A stretch of 64,000 nt of DNA from the NCBI RefSeq assembly GCF_000633455.1, contig NZ_AYMG01000042.1:1-64000 (forward strand). Direction: 5' to 3'. Made by a program: the position numbers and the translations under genes. Every line of letters begins with the position of its first letter. Positions within the stretch are counted from its first letter, which is position 1. Below the pieces are notes generated by a model, which saw only the letters and a list, made by a program, of their open reading frames with translations, searched no databases and was not told the DNA's origin. Shown piece after piece: positions 43,122-54,837 of the stretch. Source of the stretch: Pedobacter jeongneungensis (GTDB taxonomy: Bacteria > Bacteroidota > Bacteroidia > Sphingobacteriales > Sphingobacteriaceae).

Positions 43122-44256
43122 AGTCCGAAAAGTCAGAAGTCAGAGGTCCGAAGATAAGGTGCAAATAGCCATGCGACTAATACGAACTATGCTCCCAGCT
43201 CTGTGCCCTTTGCGCCTTTCTCTTTGTGCGCTCTGTGGTTAAAAATGGAAGAAGTCCGAAAAGTCAGAAGTCGGAGGTCCGAAGATAAGGTGCAAATAGC
43301 CATGCGACTAATACAAACTATGCTCCCAGCTCTGTGCGCTTTGCGCCTTTCTCTTTGTGCGCTCTGTGGTTAAAATGGAAGAAAGTCCAAAAGTCAGAAG
43401 TCGGAGGTCCGAAGATAAGGTGCAAATAGCCATGCGACTAATACAAACTATGCTCCCTGCGCTCTGTGGTTAAAAATGGAAGAAGTCCGAAAAGTCAGAG
43501 GTCGGAGGTCCGAAGATAAGGCAAATAGCCATGCGACTAATACAAACTATGCTCCCAGCTCTGTTCTCTCTGCGCCTTTCTCTTTGTGCGCTCTGTGGTT
43601 AAAATGGAAGAAGTCCGAAAAGTCAGAGGTCGGAGGTCCGAAGATAAGGTGCAATAGGCAAGCGCTTATAATAATTGCTATGCTCCCAGCTCTGTGCCCT
43701 TTGCGCCTTTCTCTTTGTGCGCTCTGTGGTTAAAATGGAAGAAGTCCGAAAAGTCAGAGGTCGGAGGTCCGAAGATAAGGTGCAATAGGCAAGCGCTTAT
43801 AATAATTGCTATGCTCCCAGCTCTGTGCACTCTGCGCCTTCTCTTTGTGCGCTCTGTGGTTAAAAATGGAAGAAGTCCGAAAAGTCAGAGGTCGGAGGTC
43901 CGAAGATAAGGTGCAAATAGCCACGCGGCTAATACAAACTATGCTCCCAGCTCTGTGCGTTTTGCGCCTTTCTCTTTGTGCGCTCTGTGGTTAAAAATGG
44001 AAGAAGTCCGAAAAGTCAGAGGTCGGAGGTCCGAAGATAAGGTGAAAATAGCCATGCAACTAATACAAACTATGCTTTCCAGCTCTGTGCCCTTTGCGCC
44101 TTTCTCTTTGTGCGCTCTGTGGTTAAAAATGGAAGAAAGTCCAAAAGTCAGAGGTCGGAGATCCGAAGATAAGGTGCAAATAGCCATGCGACTAATACAA
44201 ACTATGCTCCCAGCTCTGTGCCCTTTGCGCCCTTCTCTCTGTGCGCTCTGTGGTTA
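43122..44256. repeat. Tandem array of nine units of about 131 bp
   Basis: Units start at 43122, 43253, 43384, 43484, 43612, 43743, 43874, 44005 and 44138. Spacings are 131, 131, 100, 128, 131, 131, 131 and 133 bp. Each unit runs AGTCCGAAAAGTCAG, TCGGAGGTCCGAAGATAAGGTG, AATAGCCATGCGACTAATAC, CTATGCTCCCAGCTCTGTG, TTTGCGCCTTTCTCTTTGTG and CGCTCTGTGGTTAAAA. The fourth spacing is a 31-bp deletion. Long frames read through the array on both strands are by-products of the unit length (131 is not a multiple of 3) and are not genes. The array ends 10 bp from the stop of the STN/LA_2272 gene at 44266. Confidence 0.95.
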
Positions 44257-44265
44257 GATCACACA

Positions 44266-46002
44266 CTACAACGAAACTGTAACACCCAAATTCCAGCCCA
44301 GCCATCCTTGTGCGCCATTGCTAAAATTATGATGCTGCTTTGGTGCCAGTTCCTTTTTATAATGATTGGCTGGGCTAAACAACCTTTTTATATAATAATT
44401 ATAAGCCGGTCCCGCAAAAATGCTAAGCCGAGGCAAGGCTTTTACCTGGAGCAGGCTCTGCAATCTGTATAGTTTATTTGCGTCTTCAAAAGAACCTAAA
44501 TATATCGATTGGATGGTTCCTTCTGCTGCAATAGCGAAACGTGTATTCAATATAAAATCATGACCAAGGCCTAAACCATAAGTAAATACCTGAGCATTCT
44601 CTGAAAAGTTTTTACCTGCAATTAACAAGGTGTATAACTTAGCATTCCCTGTTTTGAAGGCAATATTGGTATTGGCTACCTCGTTGGTATAAACACTTAT
44701 TTTGCGGTAGCCATTATTAGATAGATTAATTAAACCGATACTCACTCCAGATGATGAATCGGCCAGGTTGATCAACCCAAACTGAAAACCATCCATCTTT
44801 TTGGCATAATTAATCAATCCTGAGATTTGCATGCCTTTTAAATGGCTTGCACTTTTATTAAATACTCCTGCCACCTGTACCCCGCTAATGTTTTTACCGG
44901 TGTTGATCAAACCTGCTACCTGTACGCCTTTCACATCCTTACCAGCAATATTACCCATCCCGGCCAATTGAACACCCCTTACGTTTTCTGTTACCCGATT
45001 TAAAAGACCTGCCGCCTGTAAACCATCCATATTCCTGTTTACATCATTATAAATGCCCGAAAATTGCGTGCCTTTTACCGATCCACCCACTACATTGAAG
45101 CCACCTGCCGCCTGAAACTTTTTGATATCACCTTTGGTTAAGTTAAATACACTGGCAAATTCCACACCGTCGGTTCCGGCAGTATAACCTCCAACGATAT
45201 TTAAAGATACTTTGTTTACGACGCTCGAACTCATGCTCCCATGTGAACTTAAACCGGGTATAAACGAAACTTGAAAAGGAGTTTGTGCAAAAAAATCGGG
45301 GATATTCAGGTTCTGGATCCTTTGTTTTGAAGAGAGCAAAAAGCGCCAGATACCCCTACCCCCAAAAGTATTTGAGAAAAAAGCACCCCGTTCTTTATCC
45401 GGATCCTCATATTTTCCAGGTTTTATATTTACATCAGCCAAAAAAACCAATGAAGTATCCCGGTAGGTTTCTTTACTTGCCGTTAAAATTACGCTAATGT
45501 GCTCGCCCCTAAAGCGCAATGTAAAATATCCATTGTTATCGGTAAGTGCCGCCTGAAGCAACCGTTTTTCATAAACACTGGCTTGCTTAACCTTAGCGCC
45601 CGTTCGGGTATCGATCACATAACCGCTTATGGCATATTCATTGTCTCCGTTTGCAATGTGCTCGGCCTCAATAGTCAGGTGGTTTACTGCATAACGCAGT
45701 ATAATGTATTCCGCATTTTCTTTATAATCTACCTTGCCTTCGAAAATCTGATCTAAAACTTCCCGGACCGGAACATTTTTCACATTCAGGCTTACCAGAC
45801 TATCCTGCCGAAATAAAACACCATTGTAAGAAAAATAGAATCCACCTGCCTTGCTTATCAGCTGCAAAACATTGCTCACACGCTCCTTCCTAACGTTTAA
45901 GGTTATACTTTTTGATAAATTCCGCCGATAATCTACTGTACTAACCTGAGCCGCACAGAAACCTGAAATAAAGAGTAGTAAAATAACCAGTTGTGTCTTC
46001 AT
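44266..46002 (-). CDS. STN-domain protein with LA_2272-type surface repeats
   Basis: A 578-residue envelope protein. The signal peptide is about 1-19. An STN domain (about 25-105) holds Leu-Ile-Ser-Lys-Ala-Gly-Gly-Phe-Tyr-Phe-Ser-Tyr and Val-Pro-Val-Arg-Glu-Val-Leu. A carboxypeptidase-regulatory-like domain follows (about 124-195). Then come about eight repeats of 20-22 residues of the type Gly-Val-Gln-Val-Ala-Gly-Leu-Ile-Asn (about 290-445), and a C-terminal Gly/aromatic strand-rich part. STN normally sits on TonB receptors and touches FecR. Here no plug or barrel of that type is present. The gene overlaps fecR's stop by 1 bp, so it is the signalling partner of that FecR. Confidence 0.88.
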   Translation of the reverse strand: MKTQLVILLLFISGFCAAQVSTVDYRRNLSKSITLNVRKERVSNVLQLISKAGGFYFSYNGVLFRQDSLVSLNVKNVPVREVLDQIFEGKVDYKENAEYIILRYAVNHLTIEAEHIANGDNEYAISGYVIDTRTGAKVKQASVYEKRLLQAALTDNNGYFTLRFRGEHISVILTASKETYRDTSLVFLADVNIKPGKYEDPDKERGAFFSNTFGGRGIWRFLLSSKQRIQNLNIPDFFAQTPFQVSFIPGLSSHGSMSSSVVNKVSLNIVGGYTAGTDGVEFASVFNLTKGDIKKFQAAGGFNVVGGSVKGTQFSGIYNDVNRNMDGLQAAGLLNRVTENVRGVQLAGMGNIAGKDVKGVQVAGLINTGKNISGVQVAGVFNKSASHLKGMQISGLINYAKKMDGFQFGLINLADSSSGVSIGLINLSNNGYRKISVYTNEVANTNIAFKTGNAKLYTLLIAGKNFSENAQVFTYGLGLGHDFILNTRFAIAAEGTIQSIYLGSFEDANKLYRLQSLLQVKALPRLSIFAGPAYNYYIKRLFSPANHYKKELAPKQHHNFSNGAQGWLGWNLGVTVSL

Positions 46003-46955
46003 TAATCTTTATAAGACAGCAAAATGTTGTTGCTGTTACGCGATAATTTTAAATTTAAGGTTTCGCAGATAATCTGTAAATTTTCGTTAACAGAGCCCCA
46101 TTTTAACGTAGTGCTGATCGTTAATCCCTTAACTTTTTCGTCTAAAATGATGTTGGTATCATAAGCTTCGTTTAAAGTTTTAACCAATTTTGATAGGGCA
46201 ATATTGTTGGCCTGGAACAGGTTGGTACGATAATAATTATACAACTGATCGGTACTTTGTTCTTTTACCAGTTTATCGGTATTACCTGTGATGAGGATTT
46301 TCTCGCCTTTATAAAGCCTGATTTCTTCATTGGCGATCCGCACTTTTACAATGCCTGTTTCTACATTTACCTCAGTATCCTTTTTATGGTGCCTGATGTT
46401 AAACGAAGTACCCACTACTTCTACACTTATCTGGTCGATATCGATGATAAAGGGATGGGTTTTATCTTTGGCCACTTCAAAAAATACATCGCCTTCTTCC
46501 ATTTTCAGCTTTCTGTTATTTTTAAAATTACCCGCATAGCTAATCTTGCTGTGCTTATTTAGGATCAGCTCCGATCCATCTGGCAAGTTTTCGGTACGCA
46601 CCTCGTTACGGGCAATCAGTTCGGTGTAATGTCCGGTTGAGTATAAATTGTACAGCAGCCAGCCACCAACTGCAATAAACAATACCGCAGCCACCCTTAA
46701 CCAAATTGCCCTGGTTTTCAGGGTTTTTATGCTATCAACCTGTAAATTTTCCCTTCTCGCTTTAAAACTTTCCCACGCCTTCTCCTCATCCCTTTTATTT
46801 TCATTTTTCAGGGTGTTGCTTAGCTGCCAGATGGTTTCTAACTGTATAAAATATTTTTGATTGGCTTCATCAGCATTTAGCCAGTTTCTTACCTGTTCGT
46901 TTTCTTCCTCAGTACTTTCTTTTAGAAGAAATTTGATCAATAATTCATCACTCAT
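46002..46955 (-). CDS. FecR-family anti-sigma regulator
   Basis: A 317-residue inner-membrane protein. The N-terminal sigma-binding domain (Leu-Leu-Ile-Lys-Phe-Leu-Leu-Lys-Glu-Ser-Thr-Glu-Glu-Glu...Asn-Trp-Leu) is followed by a single transmembrane helix near 85-105. The periplasmic FecR domain (about 115-215) contains Leu-Pro-Asp-Gly-Ser-Glu-Leu, and a C-terminal DUF4974/STN-contact domain follows. The start at Met-Ser-Asp-Glu-Leu was chosen. The extension to 47012 overlaps the sigma gene and adds a basic tail. It relays the signal from the STN protein at 44266 to the ECF sigma factor. Confidence 0.94.
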   Translation of the reverse strand: MSDELLIKFLLKESTEEENEQVRNWLNADEANQKYFIQLETIWQLSNTLKNENKRDEEKAWESFKARRENLQVDSIKTLKTRAIWLRVAAVLFIAVGGWLLYNLYSTGHYTELIARNEVRTENLPDGSELILNKHSKISYAGNFKNNRKLKMEEGDVFFEVAKDKTHPFIIDIDQISVEVVGTSFNIRHHKKDTEVNVETGIVKVRIANEEIRLYKGEKILITGNTDKLVKEQSTDQLYNYYRTNLFQANNIALSKLVKTLNEAYDTNIILDEKVKGLTISTTLKWGSVNENLQIICETLNLKLSRNSNNILLSYKD

Positions 46956-46968
46956 GCGCTTTCTTCTT

Positions 46969-47553
46969 CTAATTAAAAAAATCTTTATAATGCCACAATC
47001 CAAGCAAAACAAACACGAGGAAATCAGCGAGTTTCAACCTCAATATTTTTAACGCCTTACCCATCTGGTTTTCTACGGTTTTAATGGATAGGCCCAACTG
47101 ATCGGCAATTTCACGGTATTTCAGCTCATCGAACCTACTCATCTGGAAAATGGTACGGCATTGCTCCGGCAGTTGGTTCAAGGCTTCCCTTAAATGCTTT
47201 TGCAACTCTTTAAGTTCTACTTTTGCAGCTGCGGGCTCATGTTCGGTATTCATGGTGTGTACGGTAAATTCCTGGTATTTGCTTTTGGTTTTTTCCTGCT
47301 TAAGGTAATTGATGCTATCATTATAAACACATTTATAGAGGTAGGCTTTAACAGATTGTATTTGCAGGCTTTCCCTTTTTTCCCAAAACTTTAAAAACAT
47401 CCCCTGTACAATTTCTTCTGCAACATCCTCATCTTTTAAAATTACCTGGGCATAGGCATGCAGGGCATTATAATGCGTTTTGAACAACTGCTCAAATGAT
47501 GTTTCATCATTATACTGATGTCTGTTTCCGGAAGCTACTGCTGTTAATTCCAC
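46969..47553 (-). CDS. ECF RNA polymerase sigma factor
   Basis: A sigma-70 family factor of about 194 residues. Region 2 has Ala-Tyr-Ala-Gln-Val-Ile-Leu-Lys-Asp-Glu-Asp-Val-Ala-Glu-Glu-Ile-Val-Gln and Phe-Leu-Lys-Phe-Trp. Region 4 has Leu-Pro-Glu-Gln-Cys-Arg-Thr-Ile-Phe and Tyr-Arg-Glu-Ile-Ala-Asp-Gln-Leu-Gly-Leu-Ser-Ile-Lys-Thr-Val-Glu-Asn. I chose the GTG at 47553, because the frame further upstream (to 47640) is encoded by a repeat-rich inverted repeat. It lies 13 bp before fecR and after the LA_2272-type gene. Confidence 0.93.
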   Translation of the reverse strand: MELTAVASGNRHQYNDETSFEQLFKTHYNALHAYAQVILKDEDVAEEIVQGMFLKFWEKRESLQIQSVKAYLYKCVYNDSINYLKQEKTKSKYQEFTVHTMNTEHEPAAAKVELKELQKHLREALNQLPEQCRTIFQMSRFDELKYREIADQLGLSIKTVENQMGKALKILRLKLADFLVFVLLGLWHYKDFFN

Positions 47554-47615
47554 TCGTTTAATTGTAGTCAAATATAATGATTGATTGAGAGAAGGACTGA
47601 GTTTTGATTGAGAGA

Positions 47616-47672
47616 ATGATTGAATGAGAGGATACATCATTCACTAATTCATTCATTTTCTCATTCAATCAT
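47616..47672. terminator. Inverted repeat between LA_2272-type gene and sigma gene
   Basis: Arms ATGATTGAATGAG (47616-47628) and CTCATTCAATCAT (47660-47672) are perfect over 13 bp around a 31-bp loop. Located just after the stop at 47677 of the upstream gene, the hairpin may end or attenuate transcription before the sigma factor. There is no T run, so the mechanism is uncertain. Confidence 0.5.
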
Positions 47673-47676
47673 TTCT

Positions 47677-48771
47677 TTAAAAACTAATTGCCAAACCGCC
47701 TGTATAACCAAAGAACATGCCGTGCAGGGTGTTATCTTTTCTATCCCAGGTTTTTACATAATGTTTTTGTAAGGTTTTACCCTCTTCAGTATCGGTTGAT
47801 ATGAAATTAAATGACGGACCTGCGAATATTTCCAAATGAGGGCCTATCCTTAACGAAGGCATTAACTGGAAGGTGGATTTAAAATAATTGCCACGTTTAA
47901 AGTTTTGTAAAGTGCCCGAGGTAAGCTCAGCATTTAGCCTGAAATGTTCTGATTGGAAAAAATGTGCCCCTAAACCTGCTTCGAAGGCATAAACTTCATC
48001 TTTATTTTTAAAGTTGTAACCGGCACCGATAATGCCATACAATACTTTACCGCCCGAACGGAAAGTGGCCATAGTGGTTAAGTTCTGGTTTGTGGTTAAA
48101 GCAATGCTCTTTTCGCCATTTTTTACGATGTTGATGATTCCAATAGGGTAATCGCTGCTATCTGCCACGTTAATAAAGCCTGAAAGCTGAATGCCCTTAA
48201 CCTTTTTTGCAATATTGATAAACCCTGCAATTTGCGATCCCTTTACATTTGCAGCTTTGTTCATAAAACCACTGAGCTGTAATGCAGAAACATTTTTACC
48301 ACTCCAGTTTAAAAAACCGGATACCTGCGTACCGCTGTTTTCTTTCGCAATATTGGTAAAACCGGCTATTGCAACTCCGTTTCCACTTCCATAAGTATTG
48401 ATAAAACCCGCAAGTTGTGCTCCTTGTGCTTTGCCGCCAATATGGTTAGAAAAGCCTGCAAACTGCGCACCCCTTGCATCTTTACGTACAATATTAGATA
48501 TTCCGGCAAATGAAAGTCCTTTTTCTGCAGCCGAAACGCCGGCCAGCAGATTAAAAGAAAATACATTGGTATCGAGCAGGGCATGTGTTCCGTTTGTACT
48601 TATAGGATATACGATACCAATATTTACTTTATCCTTTCTGGCTTCCTGTGCAAAACCATTTAAACCCGTGCCTAAAAATATTGCCAGGCCCAATAAGGTT
48701 GCCTGCAACGCTTTTTTTAAGTTGATATGGGCATTTAAGCCCTCTTTAATGTTTGTTAAAGATGTGTTCAT
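47677..48771 (-). CDS. LA_2272-type surface-repeat protein
   Basis: A 364-residue protein with a signal peptide (Leu-Asn-Gly-Phe-Ala-Gln, cleavage near residue 42). It has about seven repeats of about 21 residues such as Gly-Ala-Gln-Leu-Ala-Gly-Phe-Ile-Asn (about 90-225). A C-terminal strand-rich, aromatic region (to Gly-Leu-Ala-Ile-Ser-Phe) is compatible with an outer-membrane anchor. It is a paralogue of the C-terminal half of the STN protein at 44266 but lacks STN. It is the first gene of the cluster that contains the sigma and FecR pair. The role is unknown. Confidence 0.85.
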   Translation of the reverse strand: MNTSLTNIKEGLNAHINLKKALQATLLGLAIFLGTGLNGFAQEARKDKVNIGIVYPISTNGTHALLDTNVFSFNLLAGVSAAEKGLSFAGISNIVRKDARGAQFAGFSNHIGGKAQGAQLAGFINTYGSGNGVAIAGFTNIAKENSGTQVSGFLNWSGKNVSALQLSGFMNKAANVKGSQIAGFINIAKKVKGIQLSGFINVADSSDYPIGIINIVKNGEKSIALTTNQNLTTMATFRSGGKVLYGIIGAGYNFKNKDEVYAFEAGLGAHFFQSEHFRLNAELTSGTLQNFKRGNYFKSTFQLMPSLRIGPHLEIFAGPSFNFISTDTEEGKTLQKHYVKTWDRKDNTLHGMFFGYTGGLAISF

Positions 48772-49132
48772 TTCTTTCTAATTTTAAACTGAGACAGCGA
48801 AGTATGGACTTACCCCTACGCAGGAAGAAAAAATATTTTTTAGATGGAAGATGGAATAAGTCCGAAAGTCGGAAGACCGAAGTCTGATGATAAGGTGGCA
48901 TAAGCACAAACAATTATTCTGTTACTACACGCCTAGCCCGGTACCCTCTGTACGCTCTGTGGTTAAAAAAACATAGAAAATATAAGTGAAGTTCGAAAGT
49001 CGGGAGAACGAAGTCTGGTGATAAGCGTAGGTAGAAGCCGTCACTCTTGCTATATTTTCAACTCTATGCCCCCTGCTCCTGTCTACAATTATAAAATTCA
49101 AAACCCTCTTATTTTTAATTGATCTAAATAGC
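48772..49132. repeat. Spacer with two diverged copies of the 131-bp repeat
   Basis: No gene is seen. 48846-48966 and 48980-49080 contain AGTCCGAAAGTCGGAAGACCGAAG and AGTTCGAAAGTCGGGAGAACGAAG heads, and ends with GTACGCTCTGTGGTTAAAA or ATGCCCCCTGC. These are relatives of the units at 43122-44256. They lie between the two divergently oriented sigma-factor loci. Confidence 0.6.
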
Positions 49133-49162: not shown

Positions 49163-49699
49163 TTGGAAGCTACAGGTCATCCTTTCTCGGGCGGGTTAAT
49201 TAAAATCGACAAACAATCGTTCGAAATGGCCTATGAGTTATATTGGGAAAAGGTATTTGCGGTTTGCTATAACAATATCAAAGAGGTTGAGCCTGCGAAA
49301 GGCATGGTTCAGGAGATTTTTAAATCGCTCTGGGAACGCCGGGCCGAACTTGAAATTGAAAAAATTGAACATTACCTCATCAGGTCAGCTAAATTCAAAA
49401 CCTTCGAATACATCCGCAACAAGGTAAACCGGCAAAAACACAATGAGTTTCAGGTAATGGATTGTTCGATATCAAGCAACTGCACCGAAGAACAGGTACT
49501 TTTTAATAATTTAAAAGAAAAAGTAAACCTCCTGGTTGATACTTTGCCCTGCCAGTGCAAAAGGGTTTACAAAATGAGCCGCGAACAGGGAATGAGCAAT
49601 AAAGAAATTGCCAATATGCTATATATTTCAGAACGTGCCGTAGAATACCACATTACCAAAGCCATGAGCAAGCTTAAAGTGGGTTTGGCCAATTATTAA
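49163..49699 (+). CDS. ECF RNA polymerase sigma factor
   Basis: A 178-residue sigma factor. Region 2 holds Tyr-Glu-Leu-Tyr-Trp-Glu-Lys-Val-Phe-Ala-Val-Cys-Tyr and Val-Gln-Glu-Ile-Phe-Lys-Ser-Leu-Trp-Glu-Arg-Arg. Region 4 has Met-Ser-Asn-Lys-Glu-Ile-Ala-Asn-Met-Leu-Tyr-Ile-Ser-Glu-Arg-Ala-Val-Glu-Tyr. The start is a TTG. The next Met is inside region 2, so TTG is preferred. It heads the iron-type locus and is followed by its anti-sigma gene. Confidence 0.9.
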   Translation: MEATGHPFSGGLIKIDKQSFEMAYELYWEKVFAVCYNNIKEVEPAKGMVQEIFKSLWERRAELEIEKIEHYLIRSAKFKTFEYIRNKVNRQKHNEFQVMDCSISSNCTEEQVLFNNLKEKVNLLVDTLPCQCKRVYKMSREQGMSNKEIANMLYISERAVEYHITKAMSKLKVGLANY

Positions 49700-49811
49700 A
49701 TTTTTATTGTTAACACTTACGGAAAACCGGTGTTTAAGCTACTTCTATTTAAAAGCAATAATTTATTAAGTTTGCAGGTAGGGCATTCTTGTTAGCACCA
49801 ATTTATCCAAA

Positions 49812-50462
49812 ATGAACATCAGTAACGAACTTTTAGAAAAATACCATTTAAATACCTGTACTGCCGAAGAGCGCAGAATGGTAGAAGAATGGTTATTCAA
49901 TACTGATGTTGGTGATCTGGATACCACAATCCTTACCCAGGATAAAAATAGCATTAAGCAAGAAATTTGGCAGGAAATTGAAACAGTTTTACCACAGGCA
50001 GTTAAGCCATTACCCAAAAGAAGCAATGCTTACCTGATGTGGAAAGGAGCCATTGCTGCTGCTGTACTCATCACTATAGCCGGTACAATTGTTTATTTCG
50101 TATTTGCCAGTAAGCCTGTGGCACAAGCTGATTATTTAGCGCTAAATAATCCTTCTGCACTGCATGTAAAATATATTGATGCCACCGGATATGATGTAGC
50201 CCTCGGTCCAAATACCACGGCCAAAATAAATAACATTGATGGCATGATTGATTTGACAGGGAGTATCATGATTTCACCAAAGAAAGATATCAGCCTCGTT
50301 TTCGAAGGAACAGATAAGAAAGTAACCTTGTTAAAAGGCCAAACCTATATTATCCTTAAAAATAAAACGGGTGTTAAAAGTATCATCGTAATCAGCGAAA
50401 GGAATTTAATGGATTTGCCCCCGGTAATGCAGAAACAGCTTTCTACCCAGTTTGATATTTAA
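49812..50462 (+). CDS. FecR-like anti-sigma factor with short periplasmic part
   Basis: A 216-residue protein. The N-terminal domain (about 1-60: Leu-Leu-Glu-Lys-Tyr-His-Leu-Asn-Thr-Cys-Thr-Ala-Glu-Glu-Arg-Arg-Met-Val-Glu-Glu-Trp-Leu) resembles FecR sigma-binding regions. One transmembrane helix lies at 77-99. The periplasmic part is only about 115 residues, with strand-like segments of FecR type, and lacks the C-terminal DUF4974/STN-contact domain seen in the FecR at 46002. It probably restrains the sigma factor at 49163 by an STN-independent route. Confidence 0.82.
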   Translation: MNISNELLEKYHLNTCTAEERRMVEEWLFNTDVGDLDTTILTQDKNSIKQEIWQEIETVLPQAVKPLPKRSNAYLMWKGAIAAAVLITIAGTIVYFVFASKPVAQADYLALNNPSALHVKYIDATGYDVALGPNTTAKINNIDGMIDLTGSIMISPKKDISLVFEGTDKKVTLLKGQTYIILKNKTGVKSIIVISERNLMDLPPVMQKQLSTQFDI

Positions 50463-50477
50463 CCGCTCCACCCTGCC

Positions 50478-51695
50478 ATGAACTTCAATAGTATCATTAA
50501 ATTTTCCATCATTGCAATTTTTGCATTTTGCTTTTTTGGCTGCAAGGAAAGAAAATCTGCAAATCAAAAAGATGCTAAATACAGTTTGTATATCCTGGCC
50601 AAAGATGGAAAGGAATACCTGCTAACCAGCAATACATTGGATAGTGGCGAATTGAAACCGGAAATATCAGGCGTATACTTAGATCCAAAGGATATGGATA
50701 GGGATGTTTTTGTAAAAGACGGCTTCTTTTATCACCTTAACCGCAAAAGCAACCGTTTCTCTAAATTTAAACTGGAAAACGGAAAATTGATCACAGCTGG
50801 TTTTGTAGACATTAAAGATTTTAGCATCGAAAATTTTAACTGGATCGGTAAAGATAGTTTATTGCTAACCGGATTAAATCTTTCGGGTTATAATCATAGC
50901 AAATACGGTTTCATCAATACCACTAAAATGGAAACCATAACACAGGGTGATATGGAAATTCCCGCACCATCAGGTAAATACACAACACTTTCTATCGGTT
51001 TTGTAGAAAAAAAAGGTAATACACTCCTGGTTGGTTATACCTATCACCTGGCGCAGGGTGTTTCTAATTATTTAACCAGCGATACGTTATATGTTTCGGA
51101 GCTCAGTTACCCGCAAATGAAACTGATCGGCACGCAAAAAGATACCCGCTCTACTTATCCGGGCGGAATCAACACCATTCAATCTTATAATTTTAAAGAT
51201 GAAAAAGGTGATTATTACTTTCAATCGTGCCCGGGCATTGCCTTAGGTAATCACCCTGATCTGCCAACCGGTATATTTAAGATTGAAGCAGGTGAAAAAA
51301 AGATCGATCCGAAATATTTTTTTAACATTTCTGCCTCAAAAATACAGAACCATGCTTATGGAATGTGGTATTTAGGCGGTAATAAAGCCATCATCCGTTC
51401 AGAGAGAAAAGATTTGTTTAAAGGCCTGGGCGATCATTACAGTACCGCACATTTTGAATTTTATGTGCTCGATCTGCTATCACAATCGGTTACCAAACTT
51501 AATCTCCCCTTAGATAAAGGAACAAGAAGAGAATGTGTAATTGTTGAGGGCAATACCGCTTATATTTCTGTTAATTCTACCAGAGAAGGCAATTACATCT
51601 GGCTGTATAATATTAAAACAGGCGCACTAAAAAAAGGACTTCAGCTTGGTGGAGATACCGATTTCATTATGCGGATAGATAGGTTGAAGGATTAA
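50478..51695 (+). CDS. DUF4374-type lipoprotein
   Basis: A 405-residue lipoprotein (lipobox Phe-Phe-Gly-Cys, Cys 22). The mature part is built of repeating beta-propeller-like strands (Asn-Phe-Asn-Trp-Ile-Gly, Ile-Trp-Leu-Tyr-Asn). It is similar in size and pattern to the second DUF4374-type protein at 54848. Bacteroidota place this family beside siderophore TonB receptors and PepSY proteins. It follows the anti-sigma gene by 15 bp, so it is in the same operon and may also be a surface sensor. Confidence 0.8.
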   Translation: MNFNSIIKFSIIAIFAFCFFGCKERKSANQKDAKYSLYILAKDGKEYLLTSNTLDSGELKPEISGVYLDPKDMDRDVFVKDGFFYHLNRKSNRFSKFKLENGKLITAGFVDIKDFSIENFNWIGKDSLLLTGLNLSGYNHSKYGFINTTKMETITQGDMEIPAPSGKYTTLSIGFVEKKGNTLLVGYTYHLAQGVSNYLTSDTLYVSELSYPQMKLIGTQKDTRSTYPGGINTIQSYNFKDEKGDYYFQSCPGIALGNHPDLPTGIFKIEAGEKKIDPKYFFNISASKIQNHAYGMWYLGGNKAIIRSERKDLFKGLGDHYSTAHFEFYVLDLLSQSVTKLNLPLDKGTRRECVIVEGNTAYISVNSTREGNYIWLYNIKTGALKKGLQLGGDTDFIMRIDRLKD

Positions 51696-52452
51696 GGCTA
51701 TTTTTAACCGCAAATAGAAGGATGCAAAACTGGGTCTTCGATTAAGCGACCATTCACATAGTCCAGTTGTATTGTCGTCATTCCCGCGCAGGCGGGAATC
51801 TTAAAGCGCTTGCATTACGATTCCTCGCAACCTATTATTCGCCAAAAAAACCTGTCATTTATATTAATTTTCATAAAACAAATTAAACATCAGCCTGACA
51901 ATAACTAAATATTGATCTGCGGTTTCTTCTTGGATCTGCGGGAACCCCTATTCCATTTTATCGCTTACATTTTCCATCACTAAAGATTCTTCACTACGTG
52001 ATGTCAAAAGGATTGAATCAAATCCGTGTAAATCTGTGCCTCCGTGGCAATCTATTTTTAACCAAACAGGTCTTCAACTACGCTCAGACTGACAATAACT
52101 AAATATTAATCTGCGGTTTCTTCTTAGATCTGCGGGAACCCCTATTCCATTTTACCTTTTCCATTTTCCATCACTAAAGATTCTTCACTACGTGATGTCA
52201 AAAGGATTGAATCAAATCCGTGTAAATCTGTGCCTCTGTGGCAATCTATTTTTAACCAAACAGGTTTTCAACTACGCTCAGACTGACAATAACTAAATAT
52301 TAATCTGCAGTTTCTTCTTGGATCTGCGGGAACCCCTATTCCATTTTACCTTTTCCATTTTCCATCCCCCTTTTTATTTTATTTTTTTTCATTTCCACCT
52401 TCGGGAAAATGAAAGTTGTGCTACTCCCTTATAAATGCACAATATTAAAATA
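51696..52452. repeat. Repeat region: palindromic element and 194-bp tandem repeat
   Basis: No gene is seen. 51775-51880 carries CATTCCCGCGCAGGCGGGAAT and a tail that recurs at 63873-64000. 51893-52370 is a tandem repeat of 194-bp period, about 2.4 copies: the word GACAATAACTAAATATT is at 51897, 52091 and 52285. Each unit holds CTGCGGGAACCCCTATTCCATTTTA, CACTACGTGATG and GTGTAAATCTGTGCCTC. It separates the sigma/anti-sigma/lipoprotein block from the receptor gene. Confidence 0.85.
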
Positions 52453-54837
52453 ATGTATCGATTAAATTTTTTACTCTTTTTACTGGTCCTTTCCACAACA
52501 GTTTTCGCACAGCAAAACACCGAAATAAATGGTTATGTAACAGATAGTACAACAGCCATAAGTGGTGCATCAATTTCTTTAAAGGGTACAAAGGTGGGCG
52601 CAACCACAGATGCAAACGGATTTTTTAAAATATCTGCTATCAAACCTGGACGTTATACCATCGTGGTATCTTTTGTCGGTTATCAAAAAGCCAGTCAGGA
52701 AATTACATTAACTACCACAAAGCCCCTGACTTTAAAAATTGCACTTAAACCCGATTACAGCAACTTAGAGAATGTAGAAGTAAAAGGCAGAACTGCTGTA
52801 ACAGAACTTAAACAATCAGGATTCACCGTAAACGTGATCGATCTGAAGGCGTTTCAGAATACCAGTGCAGATCTTAACCAAATCCTAAACAAGAGTACAG
52901 GTGTTAAAGTAAGAGAACAGGGCGGCTTAGGATCTGATTTCAATTTTACATTGAATGGCTTATCAGGTCGCCAGATCCGTTTTTTTATAGACGGTATACC
53001 GATGGAATCTTTTGGAAGTTCGATAGGGTTAAACAATATTCCGGTGAATCTTGCTGAACGTATTGAGGTTTATAAAGGCGTAGTTCCGGTAGAGCTCGGA
53101 GCCGATGCGCTGGGAGGTGCCGTAAACATCGTTACCAATCAGTCTGTATCAAAATATCTTGATGCCAGTGTAAGTTATGGCTCATTCAATACCTTAAGGG
53201 CTGCCCTTTCGGGTAAATATAAAGATAAAAAAACAGGCCTGACATTTACGTTTAATGGCTTTCATAATTCATCAGATAATGATTATCTGATGAGAAGTAA
53301 TCCAAAGTATGATGCTGCGATTAAAGTGGTTGAAAACAACGAACTCGTGGAAAAAGATGTTAAGCGGTTCCACAGCGCTTATCGCTCCACTATGGGGCAA
53401 GTGGGTATTGGTGTTGCCAATAAATCATGGGCCGACCAGTTTGAGGTAAACTTCCTTTATTCGGACATGTACAAAGAAATACAAACCGGAGCAAACCAAA
53501 ATAAGGTTATAGGAGAGGTAACAAACCGCGAAAGATTTTTTATGCCTTCCATCAGATACAAAAAAAGCAATTTTTTAACAAACGGTTTAACCGCAACTTT
53601 TTTTGCTTCAACCTCAATCAATAGATCTACTGTACCTGATACGGCAAATTATGTATACTCATGGAGTGGAAGAGGAAGAGCCGAACCCATTTCCGGAGAA
53701 CTTTATGGTGTAAAAAGCATTTACCACTATCGAAATACCGCTGGTTTGGCCAGGGCAAATTTTAGCTATGAAATCAATGCCAATAACAGCTTAAATCTGA
53801 ATTATAACTACAGCCACTTCGCCAGGCAGGCAACTGAAGATTTAGGAATAGTAAAAACAAATACTTTTGATGAACCGAACACCATAGCCAAACAAGTTGT
53901 GGGACTTGCTTATCAAAATAATGCCATCAATAAACAGTTAACTACGTCCGTATTTGGTAAGTTTTATGCCATGAATGCGCTGGTCCGCAATGCAGTTTTT
54001 TCGCAAAACCAAACTTATATTAAAACCGATTCAGAAATTTCCAATAACTATTTCGGATATGGTATCGCGAGCAGATACCGAATGAGCAACAATGCAGGTG
54101 TAAAGTTATCTTACGAACATGCTTATCGCTTGCAGGAAGGGGATGAATTATTCGGAAATGGAATAGATGTCACATCCAATATCAATCTTAAGCCCGAAAG
54201 CAGTGATAATATCAATTTTGGAGCATATTATAACTTCCAGATTAATGAAAAACATCATGTAGGTATTGAAGGCTCTTATTTCTATCGAAACGCAAAAGAT
54301 TTTATTTACTTTATTCCGAGTGGTGGCATTTATTCCGTTTACGATAACCTCGCAGGAGCAAAAATTAATGGCGTAGAGCTTGAGGTGAGGTATCGTTATT
54401 CAACATTATTGAACTTTAGTGTAAACGGCACTTATCAAAAGGCCATAAGCCAACAGTTTTACGAACCAAATACTACCGTGCCGGATATGACTTATGGCGA
54501 CAGGGTACCAAACCAGCCCTGGTTATATGCTAACGCAAATCTCGAAATCGGCCAAAATGATATTTGGGCACCTGGAACACGTTTACAGCTTAGTCTTTCG
54601 AGCCAATTTGTAAACTGGTTTTACCTAAACTGGGAAAGCCGGGGTAGTATTGAATCCAAAAATCAGATTCCAACCCAGTTTTCTCACAATGTGGCACTTG
54701 CCTACAGTATGGCAAATGGCCGGTATAACATCTCTGCGGAGGTAAATAACTTTACTAATGAGCTGCTATATGACAATTTCAGGTTACAAAAACCCGGACG
54801 TTCAGCTTTTATCAAACTTCGATACTTCATTAAATAA
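52453..54837 (+). CDS. TonB-dependent outer-membrane receptor
   Basis: A 794-residue receptor. The signal peptide ends near Val-Phe-Ala-Gln (about 20). A carboxypeptidase-regulatory-like domain (about 25-105) precedes the plug (about 115-235, with Gly-Leu-Gly-Ser-Asp-Phe-Asn and Glu-Arg-Ile-Glu-Val-Tyr-Lys-Gly-Val-Val-Pro-Val-Glu). A 22-strand-type barrel ends Leu-Arg-Tyr-Phe-Ile-Lys. No STN domain is visible, so it is not a classical signalling transducer. Neighbours (DUF4374, PepSY) suggest a ferric-siderophore substrate. I chose the Met at 52453, six codons inside a possible start at 52435. Confidence 0.94.
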   Translation: MYRLNFLLFLLVLSTTVFAQQNTEINGYVTDSTTAISGASISLKGTKVGATTDANGFFKISAIKPGRYTIVVSFVGYQKASQEITLTTTKPLTLKIALKPDYSNLENVEVKGRTAVTELKQSGFTVNVIDLKAFQNTSADLNQILNKSTGVKVREQGGLGSDFNFTLNGLSGRQIRFFIDGIPMESFGSSIGLNNIPVNLAERIEVYKGVVPVELGADALGGAVNIVTNQSVSKYLDASVSYGSFNTLRAALSGKYKDKKTGLTFTFNGFHNSSDNDYLMRSNPKYDAAIKVVENNELVEKDVKRFHSAYRSTMGQVGIGVANKSWADQFEVNFLYSDMYKEIQTGANQNKVIGEVTNRERFFMPSIRYKKSNFLTNGLTATFFASTSINRSTVPDTANYVYSWSGRGRAEPISGELYGVKSIYHYRNTAGLARANFSYEINANNSLNLNYNYSHFARQATEDLGIVKTNTFDEPNTIAKQVVGLAYQNNAINKQLTTSVFGKFYAMNALVRNAVFSQNQTYIKTDSEISNNYFGYGIASRYRMSNNAGVKLSYEHAYRLQEGDELFGNGIDVTSNINLKPESSDNINFGAYYNFQINEKHHVGIEGSYFYRNAKDFIYFIPSGGIYSVYDNLAGAKINGVELEVRYRYSTLLNFSVNGTYQKAISQQFYEPNTTVPDMTYGDRVPNQPWLYANANLEIGQNDIWAPGTRLQLSLSSQFVNWFYLNWESRGSIESKNQIPTQFSHNVALAYSMANGRYNISAEVNNFTNELLYDNFRLQKPGRSAFIKLRYFIK

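Follow-up and report, generated by a model that had tools for sequence, protein, structure and literature searches.

A candidate FecI/FecR-type signalling locus of Pedobacter jeongneungensis with a putative LA_2272-type barrel transducer

In the FecI/FecR/FecA and FoxI/FoxR/FoxA systems, an extracytoplasmic function (ECF) sigma factor adjoins an anti-sigma factor with FecR and FecR_C domains, and an N-terminal STN domain is carried by an outer-membrane protein (PMC9249621, PMC11637429). Signalling from STN to FecR has been described for TonB-dependent receptors, and it is hard to separate from energised transport (PMC9249621). Here we describe a locus of Pedobacter jeongneungensis (assembly GCF_000633455.1) in which an ECF sigma gene and a fecR gene are accompanied by two genes for LA_2272-type repeat proteins, one with and one without an STN; the locus lies within a window of 64,000 nt, the whole stretch analysed, which corresponds to positions 1-64,000 of the forward strand of contig NZ_AYMG01000042.1. 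Similar to the Fec and Fox systems, the sigma gene adjoins a gene for a FecR and FecR_C anti-sigma factor, and the STN stands at the N-terminus of an outer-membrane protein (OMP), here a predicted one. As in E. coli fec (PMC9249621), the regulator pair has a housekeeping promoter and a surface-protein gene an ECF promoter, both predicted in our case. Unlike in Fec and Fox, the transducer has neither plug nor receptor barrel (0/71 homologues), a distinct, STN-less paralogue is predicted as the main target, and the transducer gene sits in the sigma-fecR operon and not with the target. The system is without the TonB receptor that marks the FecI/FecR/FecA family, though it would work like a member of it.

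The reading that we prefer, and to which we give good odds, is cell-surface signalling of the FecI/FecR type with an LA_2272-type small barrel as transducer and with the sigma factor transcribing the sister LA gene. The outer-membrane barrel would take the place of the TonB-dependent receptor, and its STN, carried on a carboxypeptidase-regulatory-like domain (CPD) and a flexible linker, would extend into the periplasm and touch FecR at its C-terminal domain. If a ligand or the condition of the outer membrane changed the state of the barrel, the contact between STN and FecR would be altered and the ECF sigma factor released, with FecR, the anti-sigma factor, presumably being proteolysed. The freed sigma factor would then transcribe the STN-less sister gene from a promoter of the form rTAGGGGTAA-N12-TTGTCTCAT, and in many relatives it would transcribe other envelope genes as well. 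Going by homology, the adjacent fecR gene should encode the contact partner of the LA protein's STN. Signalling is likely to be independent of transport, since the transducer has no plug and its modelled barrel is small. No account of this signalling system was found in the open-licence literature.

Gene set and its conservation in Bacteroidota

A preliminary description of this DNA had proposed, on the minus strand, the order LA_2272-type gene, ECF sigma, FecR and STN-carboxypeptidase-like-LA_2272 gene, and all four genes were found where it had placed them (Table 1). Its spacings are exact, with a 13-bp gap between sigma and fecR and a 1-bp overlap between fecR and the STN gene (TAATG). The sigma factor is of the Bacteroidota ECF type by profile match. 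Homologues of the 578-aa STN/LA protein were found in 71 of 149 sampled relatives, and in a first set of loci a fecR gene lay near the STN/LA gene in every case (56/56). We then considered 80 named loci from Pedobacter, Daejeonella, Hufsiella, Dyadobacter, Chitinophaga, Taibaiella and others, gathered with an alignment of the closer STN/LA set, as the alignment of all homologues was too diverse for a contig search. In 74 of these 80 loci the STN/LA gene has sigma and fecR with it; of the six without them, one is at a contig end and five are solitary genes in Chitinophaga and related genomes. A stand-alone LA gene is present on the same strand in 72/80; in Sphingobacteriaceae it precedes sigma, in Chitinophaga, Dyadobacter and relatives it follows the STN gene, and the association therefore outlives a rearrangement of the genes. 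Several Bacteroidota families conserve the sigma-fecR-STN/LA trio, and the four-gene set, whose lack of conservation in other genomes would have spoken against the preliminary description, is kept across genera and families. Because the same set recurs across dozens of genomes, the arrangement is far beyond chance.

A phylum-wide sample, comprising flanks of about 1.5 kb around LA genes, ties fecR to the STN: it adjoins 16 of 17 LA proteins with an STN and 0 of 12 without (Fisher p 2.5e-7). The STN-less LA proteins of that sample belong to another class of the phylum (L262-L271 are of about 380-525 aa and have no adjacent fecR). Clusters of relatives also carry a DUF2807 lipoprotein, an FA_hydroxylase/DUF4833 protein or an OMP with CPD and barrel. 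In the Sphingobacteriaceae loci L110-L154, DUF2807 lipoprotein and FA_hydroxylase/DUF4833 genes lie between LA and sigma; in the window's own subclade (L100-L109) they are missing from that position, and DUF2807 genes are found elsewhere in the genome.

The same genome also holds six ECF-FecR-STN-SusC loci (L292-L297), which have the same gene order as this locus and a fecR gene and STN-CPD module homologous to its own. Their SusC-type proteins are 1092-1221 aa long, versus 578 aa here. The STN-CPD part of the 578-aa protein resembles these six long STN-bearing proteins, each of which is encoded beside its own sigma and fecR genes, and it is therefore an ordinary signalling module set on another outer-membrane protein.

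Two variants of the system were seen along the way. In one Pedobacter (genome G058, locus L042) the STN/LA gene is fragmented by a frameshift or stop, and sigma, fecR, LA and the LA promoter are retained. In the P. jeongneungensis genome, a paralogous sigma-fecR-STN/LA system of about 39% identity (L040, G000:C14:230640-234024) has no stand-alone LA gene beside it; a 221-aa open reading frame (ORF) about 2.8 kb upstream of the paralogous sigma gene is preceded by a variant promoter motif (15.9 bits).

Predicted architecture of the two LA_2272-type proteins

The 578-aa protein matches Pfam STN (E 7.6e-7, aa 57-90), CarbopepD_reg_2 (E 1.7e-6, aa 125-163) and the LA_2272_repeat model NF047436 (E 1.7e-8; 34.2 bits, above the cut-off of 25), the last of which belongs to NCBIfam and not to Pfam, as had been assumed. 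It shares its repeat motif with the LA_2272 and VC2662 surface-repeat families (NF047436, NF047437), from which it differs by the added STN-CPD fusion and by its linkage to ECF and FecR genes. Among the 71 homologues, a CPD was found in all and an STN in 64. The preliminary description had named beforehand, as a point that would speak against it, a TonB plug or barrel in the 578-residue protein; in a domain search, neither Plug nor TonB_dep_Rec was matched by any of the 71 STN/LA homologues.

An AlphaFold model of the 578-aa protein (predicted local distance difference test, pLDDT, 77.6; predicted template modelling score, pTM, 0.48) shows alternating strands and helices as in an STN at residues 32-104, a beta-rich CPD at 122-188, a disordered linker at 190-265, then short repeat strands and, from about residue 366, long strands. 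With Foldseek its best match was NspA (E 3e-3), and the N0 domain of PilQ and DotD fit the STN part. The stand-alone 364-aa protein itself is matched by neither Pfam nor NCBIfam models, though 21/57 members of its alignment match NF047436 (E 0.01). Its earlier designation as LA_2272-type accordingly has no family match of the protein itself behind it, and it stands by direct comparison, as the protein is 38% identical over about 300 aa to the LA part of the 578-aa protein. Its model (pLDDT 89.7) is better than that of the transducer; the structures that match it best, across roughly half of the protein and at E-values of 5.8e-4 and weaker, are a designed small barrel, NspA and OmpA.

Since these E-values are modest, we present the architecture of both LA proteins, a small outer-membrane barrel plus a repeat region, as a prediction. 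The C-terminal residue is phenylalanine in 50 of 80 STN/LA proteins and in 55 of 72 stand-alone LA proteins, as is usual in outer-membrane barrels. From the models we infer an outer-membrane location for the transducer; they suggest a small barrel, which without plug and receptor barrel would be of non-TonB type. The earlier proposal of an STN on a surface protein that is no TonB receptor is supported by the Pfam STN match, the N0-like model, the missing plug and the predicted small barrel.

Promoters and predicted targets

In an alignment of close relatives, a sharply conserved block stands 5' of the LA gene within DNA that has otherwise diverged. The resulting two-box model, rTAGGGGTAA-N12-TTGTCTCAT, lies about 48 nt before the start codon and nearly always has a spacer of 12. 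Counted as present at a score of at least 12 bits, it precedes 67/73 LA genes, 9/12 OMP genes, 14/74 sigma genes (those of the Chitinophagales type) and 1/43 DUF2807 genes, and none of 74 fecR genes, 80 STN genes, 705 other ORFs and 73 shuffled sequences. In distant and paralogous systems it was found before sigma, fecR, LA, OMP or separately placed STN genes, again mostly with a spacer of 12. Within 14 kb around each of the six ECF-FecR-SusC loci it is absent save for two sites in a single locus, which score 12.3 and 10.1 bits and are without the GGGGT core, and no TAGGGGTA-N13-TGTC promoter occurs in the 14 kb examined there. Across Pedobacter, the motif is present in 25 of 34 genomes with the system versus 2 of 26 without it (p 2.5e-7, uncorrected for relatedness). 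The perfect site is unique in the 6.7-Mb genome, and no second site of at least 10 bits was found within the window. A loose genome-wide search that allowed 3 mismatches returned 80 matches versus 116 in the control and was not used, save for one 2-mismatch site at G000:C21 that conservation supports.

On these sequence grounds the motif is specific to this signalling system. The alternative that it is an ECF or housekeeping promoter of general use was dismissed, given the six canonical loci, the 0/705 other ORFs, and the TAnnTTTG element carried instead by Sphingobacteriaceae sigma genes. We infer that the sigma factor of the locus recognises the LA promoter, and, because a conserved and specific promoter precedes the LA genes, the stand-alone LA gene is most probably the main output. 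The preliminary description had left this second LA protein as partner, competitor or target; the conserved promoter favours the target role, and sequence evidence for hetero-association was not found. A second target is predicted in the same genome at G000:C21:52220-52248 (L190), where a site with 2 mismatches, conserved in several Pedobacter, stands 5' of a gene for a 189-aa OMP_b-brl_2 protein. In one further genome (L214) the motif accompanies a lipid A acyltransferase gene. Such a gene was also seen directly after the LA gene in a Dyadobacter (L156:9054-9935).

The sequence TAnnTTTG, which is the -7 element of the Bacteroidota housekeeping sigma factor (PMC7366714, PMC9723704), was found near 62/75 sigma genes versus 2/73 LA genes. 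In the predicted layout a housekeeping promoter serves the regulator pair and an ECF promoter the surface protein. The four genes probably form two transcription units, as the stand-alone LA gene appears to own a different promoter. The -7 box also bears on the sigma start. The sigma ORF can be extended upstream to 47640, where the preliminary description, right about the position of the gene, had it begin; because the housekeeping-type box would fall inside this longer ORF, that start is probably too far upstream and GTG 47553 is probably the true one.

Table 1. Features of the locus in window coordinates.
Feature	Coordinates	Strand	Basis or remark
Putative outer-membrane transducer (STN gene), 578 aa	44266..46002	-	Signal peptide, STN, CPD, disordered linker, LA_2272 repeats, C-terminal barrel
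LA_2272 repeat region and predicted C-terminal barrel, aa 266-578	44269..45207	-	NF047436; long strands in model; NspA top PDB match
CPD domain (carboxypeptidase-regulatory-like), aa 122-188	45439..45639	-	Pfam and model; 71/71 homologues
STN (secretin/TonB short N-terminal, N0-like) domain, aa 32-104	45691..45909	-	Pfam STN; alternating strands and helices in model; Foldseek PilQ N0, DotD
FecR-type anti-sigma factor with FecR_C domain, 317 aa	46002..46955	-	PF04773 E 1.8e-18, PF16344 E 5.4e-6
ECF sigma factor, 194 aa from GTG	46969..47553	-	TIGR02985 E 7e-52; start from TATATTTG box and orthologue lengths
TATATTTG, TAnnTTTG -7 box of housekeeping sigma; predicted sigma-fecR-STN/LA promoter	47569..47576	-	Kept in every close relative aligned
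Stand-alone LA_2272-like protein, 364 aa, without STN; predicted output gene	47677..48771	-	Comparison, conserved neighbourhood, promoter
Predicted ECF-type promoter GTAGGGGTAA-N12-CTGTCTCAG	48789..48819	-	48 nt before LA start codon

Directly downstream of the STN gene, at 43122-44256, there is a tandem array with a 131-bp period and matches of up to 97%. On the other side, at 49163-54837 and divergent from the LA gene, lie a second ECF sigma gene, a probable anti-sigma gene, a gene for a DUF4374 protein and then a TonB receptor gene (52435-54837, 3.7 kb away), whose product has CPD, plug and barrel and no STN.

Weighing the explanations

Several observations count against the FecI/FecR-type reading with an LA barrel as transducer. 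Five STN/LA genes of the Chitinophaga type (L169, L170, L177, L178, L179) have no sigma, fecR or LA gene nearby, and some Chitinophagales clusters hold a receptor-like OMP with CPD and without STN, which may mean that import is linked to the output there. When the STN and FecR_C profiles were compared, no significant similarity emerged, although one homologue does match the FecR_C model at E 8.5e-4. The transducer model is of moderate quality and includes a disordered linker, and the matches that Foldseek found for it are weak. The LA genes L152 and L158 and those of Dyadobacter L156, L157, L160 and L176 have no good promoter match. As the promoter model was trained on LA upstream regions, the 67/73 count is partly fitted, and the independent evidence therefore comes from the other genes, the paralogous and distant systems, the canonical loci and the co-occurrence across genomes.

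If signalling here were of the ordinary TonB kind, the STN/LA protein would be an accessory and the true transducer would be a TonB receptor, such as the one at 52435-54837 with its CPD, plug and barrel 3.7 kb off, or the receptor-like OMPs of some Chitinophagales clusters. We rejected the nearby receptor as transducer, however, as it has no STN, lies on the other strand and stands behind another sigma/anti-sigma pair, and the receptor-like OMPs tested look like outputs, because they lack an STN and most have the target promoter; we regard this explanation as very improbable. A stand-alone LA protein that partners or competes with the sensor, providing negative feedback in place of an independent effector function, would fit the homologous fold and the near-constant linkage (72/80 loci). 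The target-gene role, however, fully accounts for this linkage, and we think such buffering unlikely. The TonB-receptor-free variant of surface signalling put forward in the preliminary description has held up in this comparison, as plug and receptor barrel are missing from the homologues and the gene set recurs in other genera and families, and a candidate target promoter can now be added to it.

Two further explanations keep the mechanism that we prefer and differ in the stimulus. One sees the STN/LA barrel not as a ligand receptor but as a sentinel of membrane composition or assembly, whose regulon restores the membrane. The motif-bearing genes are envelope genes (LA barrel, OMP_b-brl_2, CPD-bearing OMPs, DUF2807 lipoprotein, lipid A acyltransferase), and the sensor and its main target are homologous; such a shared fold, however, would also be expected if duplication had split a ligand sensor from its effector. 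The regulon seems small, with one perfect site and a second, conserved one in this genome, and no gene for the beta-barrel assembly machinery (BAM), a chaperone or a protease was seen among its members. The purpose could resemble that of the SigmaE-RseA envelope stress response, in which an ECF sigma factor also acts on outer-membrane protein and lipid A genes, though the anti-sigma factor here is of the FecR and not the RseA type and an STN outer-membrane protein belongs to the system. In the other explanation a surface or polymer ligand would bind to the repeats, and an adhesive layer of LA repeats and DUF2807 "head GIN" proteins would result. This would suit the 43 DUF2807-type ORFs that the named loci contain, most of which follow LA or lie between it and sigma, the repeat number, which differs among STN/LA homologues as in surface-exposed repeats, and a DUF2807 protein of Porphyromonas gingivalis that is described as an adhesin in the available part of one report (PMC10949514). 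DUF2807 has been lost from the cluster in the window's subclade, however, and the open-licence literature gives LA_2272 proteins no established function. We hold both the sentinel and the adhesive layer to be tentative proposals, each with the odds against it. The predicted targets favour an envelope function, and a read-out of outer-membrane state would fit them at least as well as a surface ligand. A possible, if doubtful, extension is a surveillance circuit widespread in Bacteroidota, in which an STN on a non-transporting barrel would report the state of the outer membrane to FecR and the ECF sigma factor, and the latter, through rTAGGGGTAA-N12-TTGTCTCAT, would rebuild the surface with the paralogous barrel, OMPs, DUF2807 lipoproteins and lipid A acyltransferase.

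STN-FecR signalling that occurs in nature with neither plug nor receptor barrel would demonstrate the portability of the STN module and allow signalling to be studied apart from transport. From the predicted promoter come a concrete regulon for the sigma factor and a simple reporter test, and the LA_2272 repeat proteins of Bacteroidota gain a first functional context.

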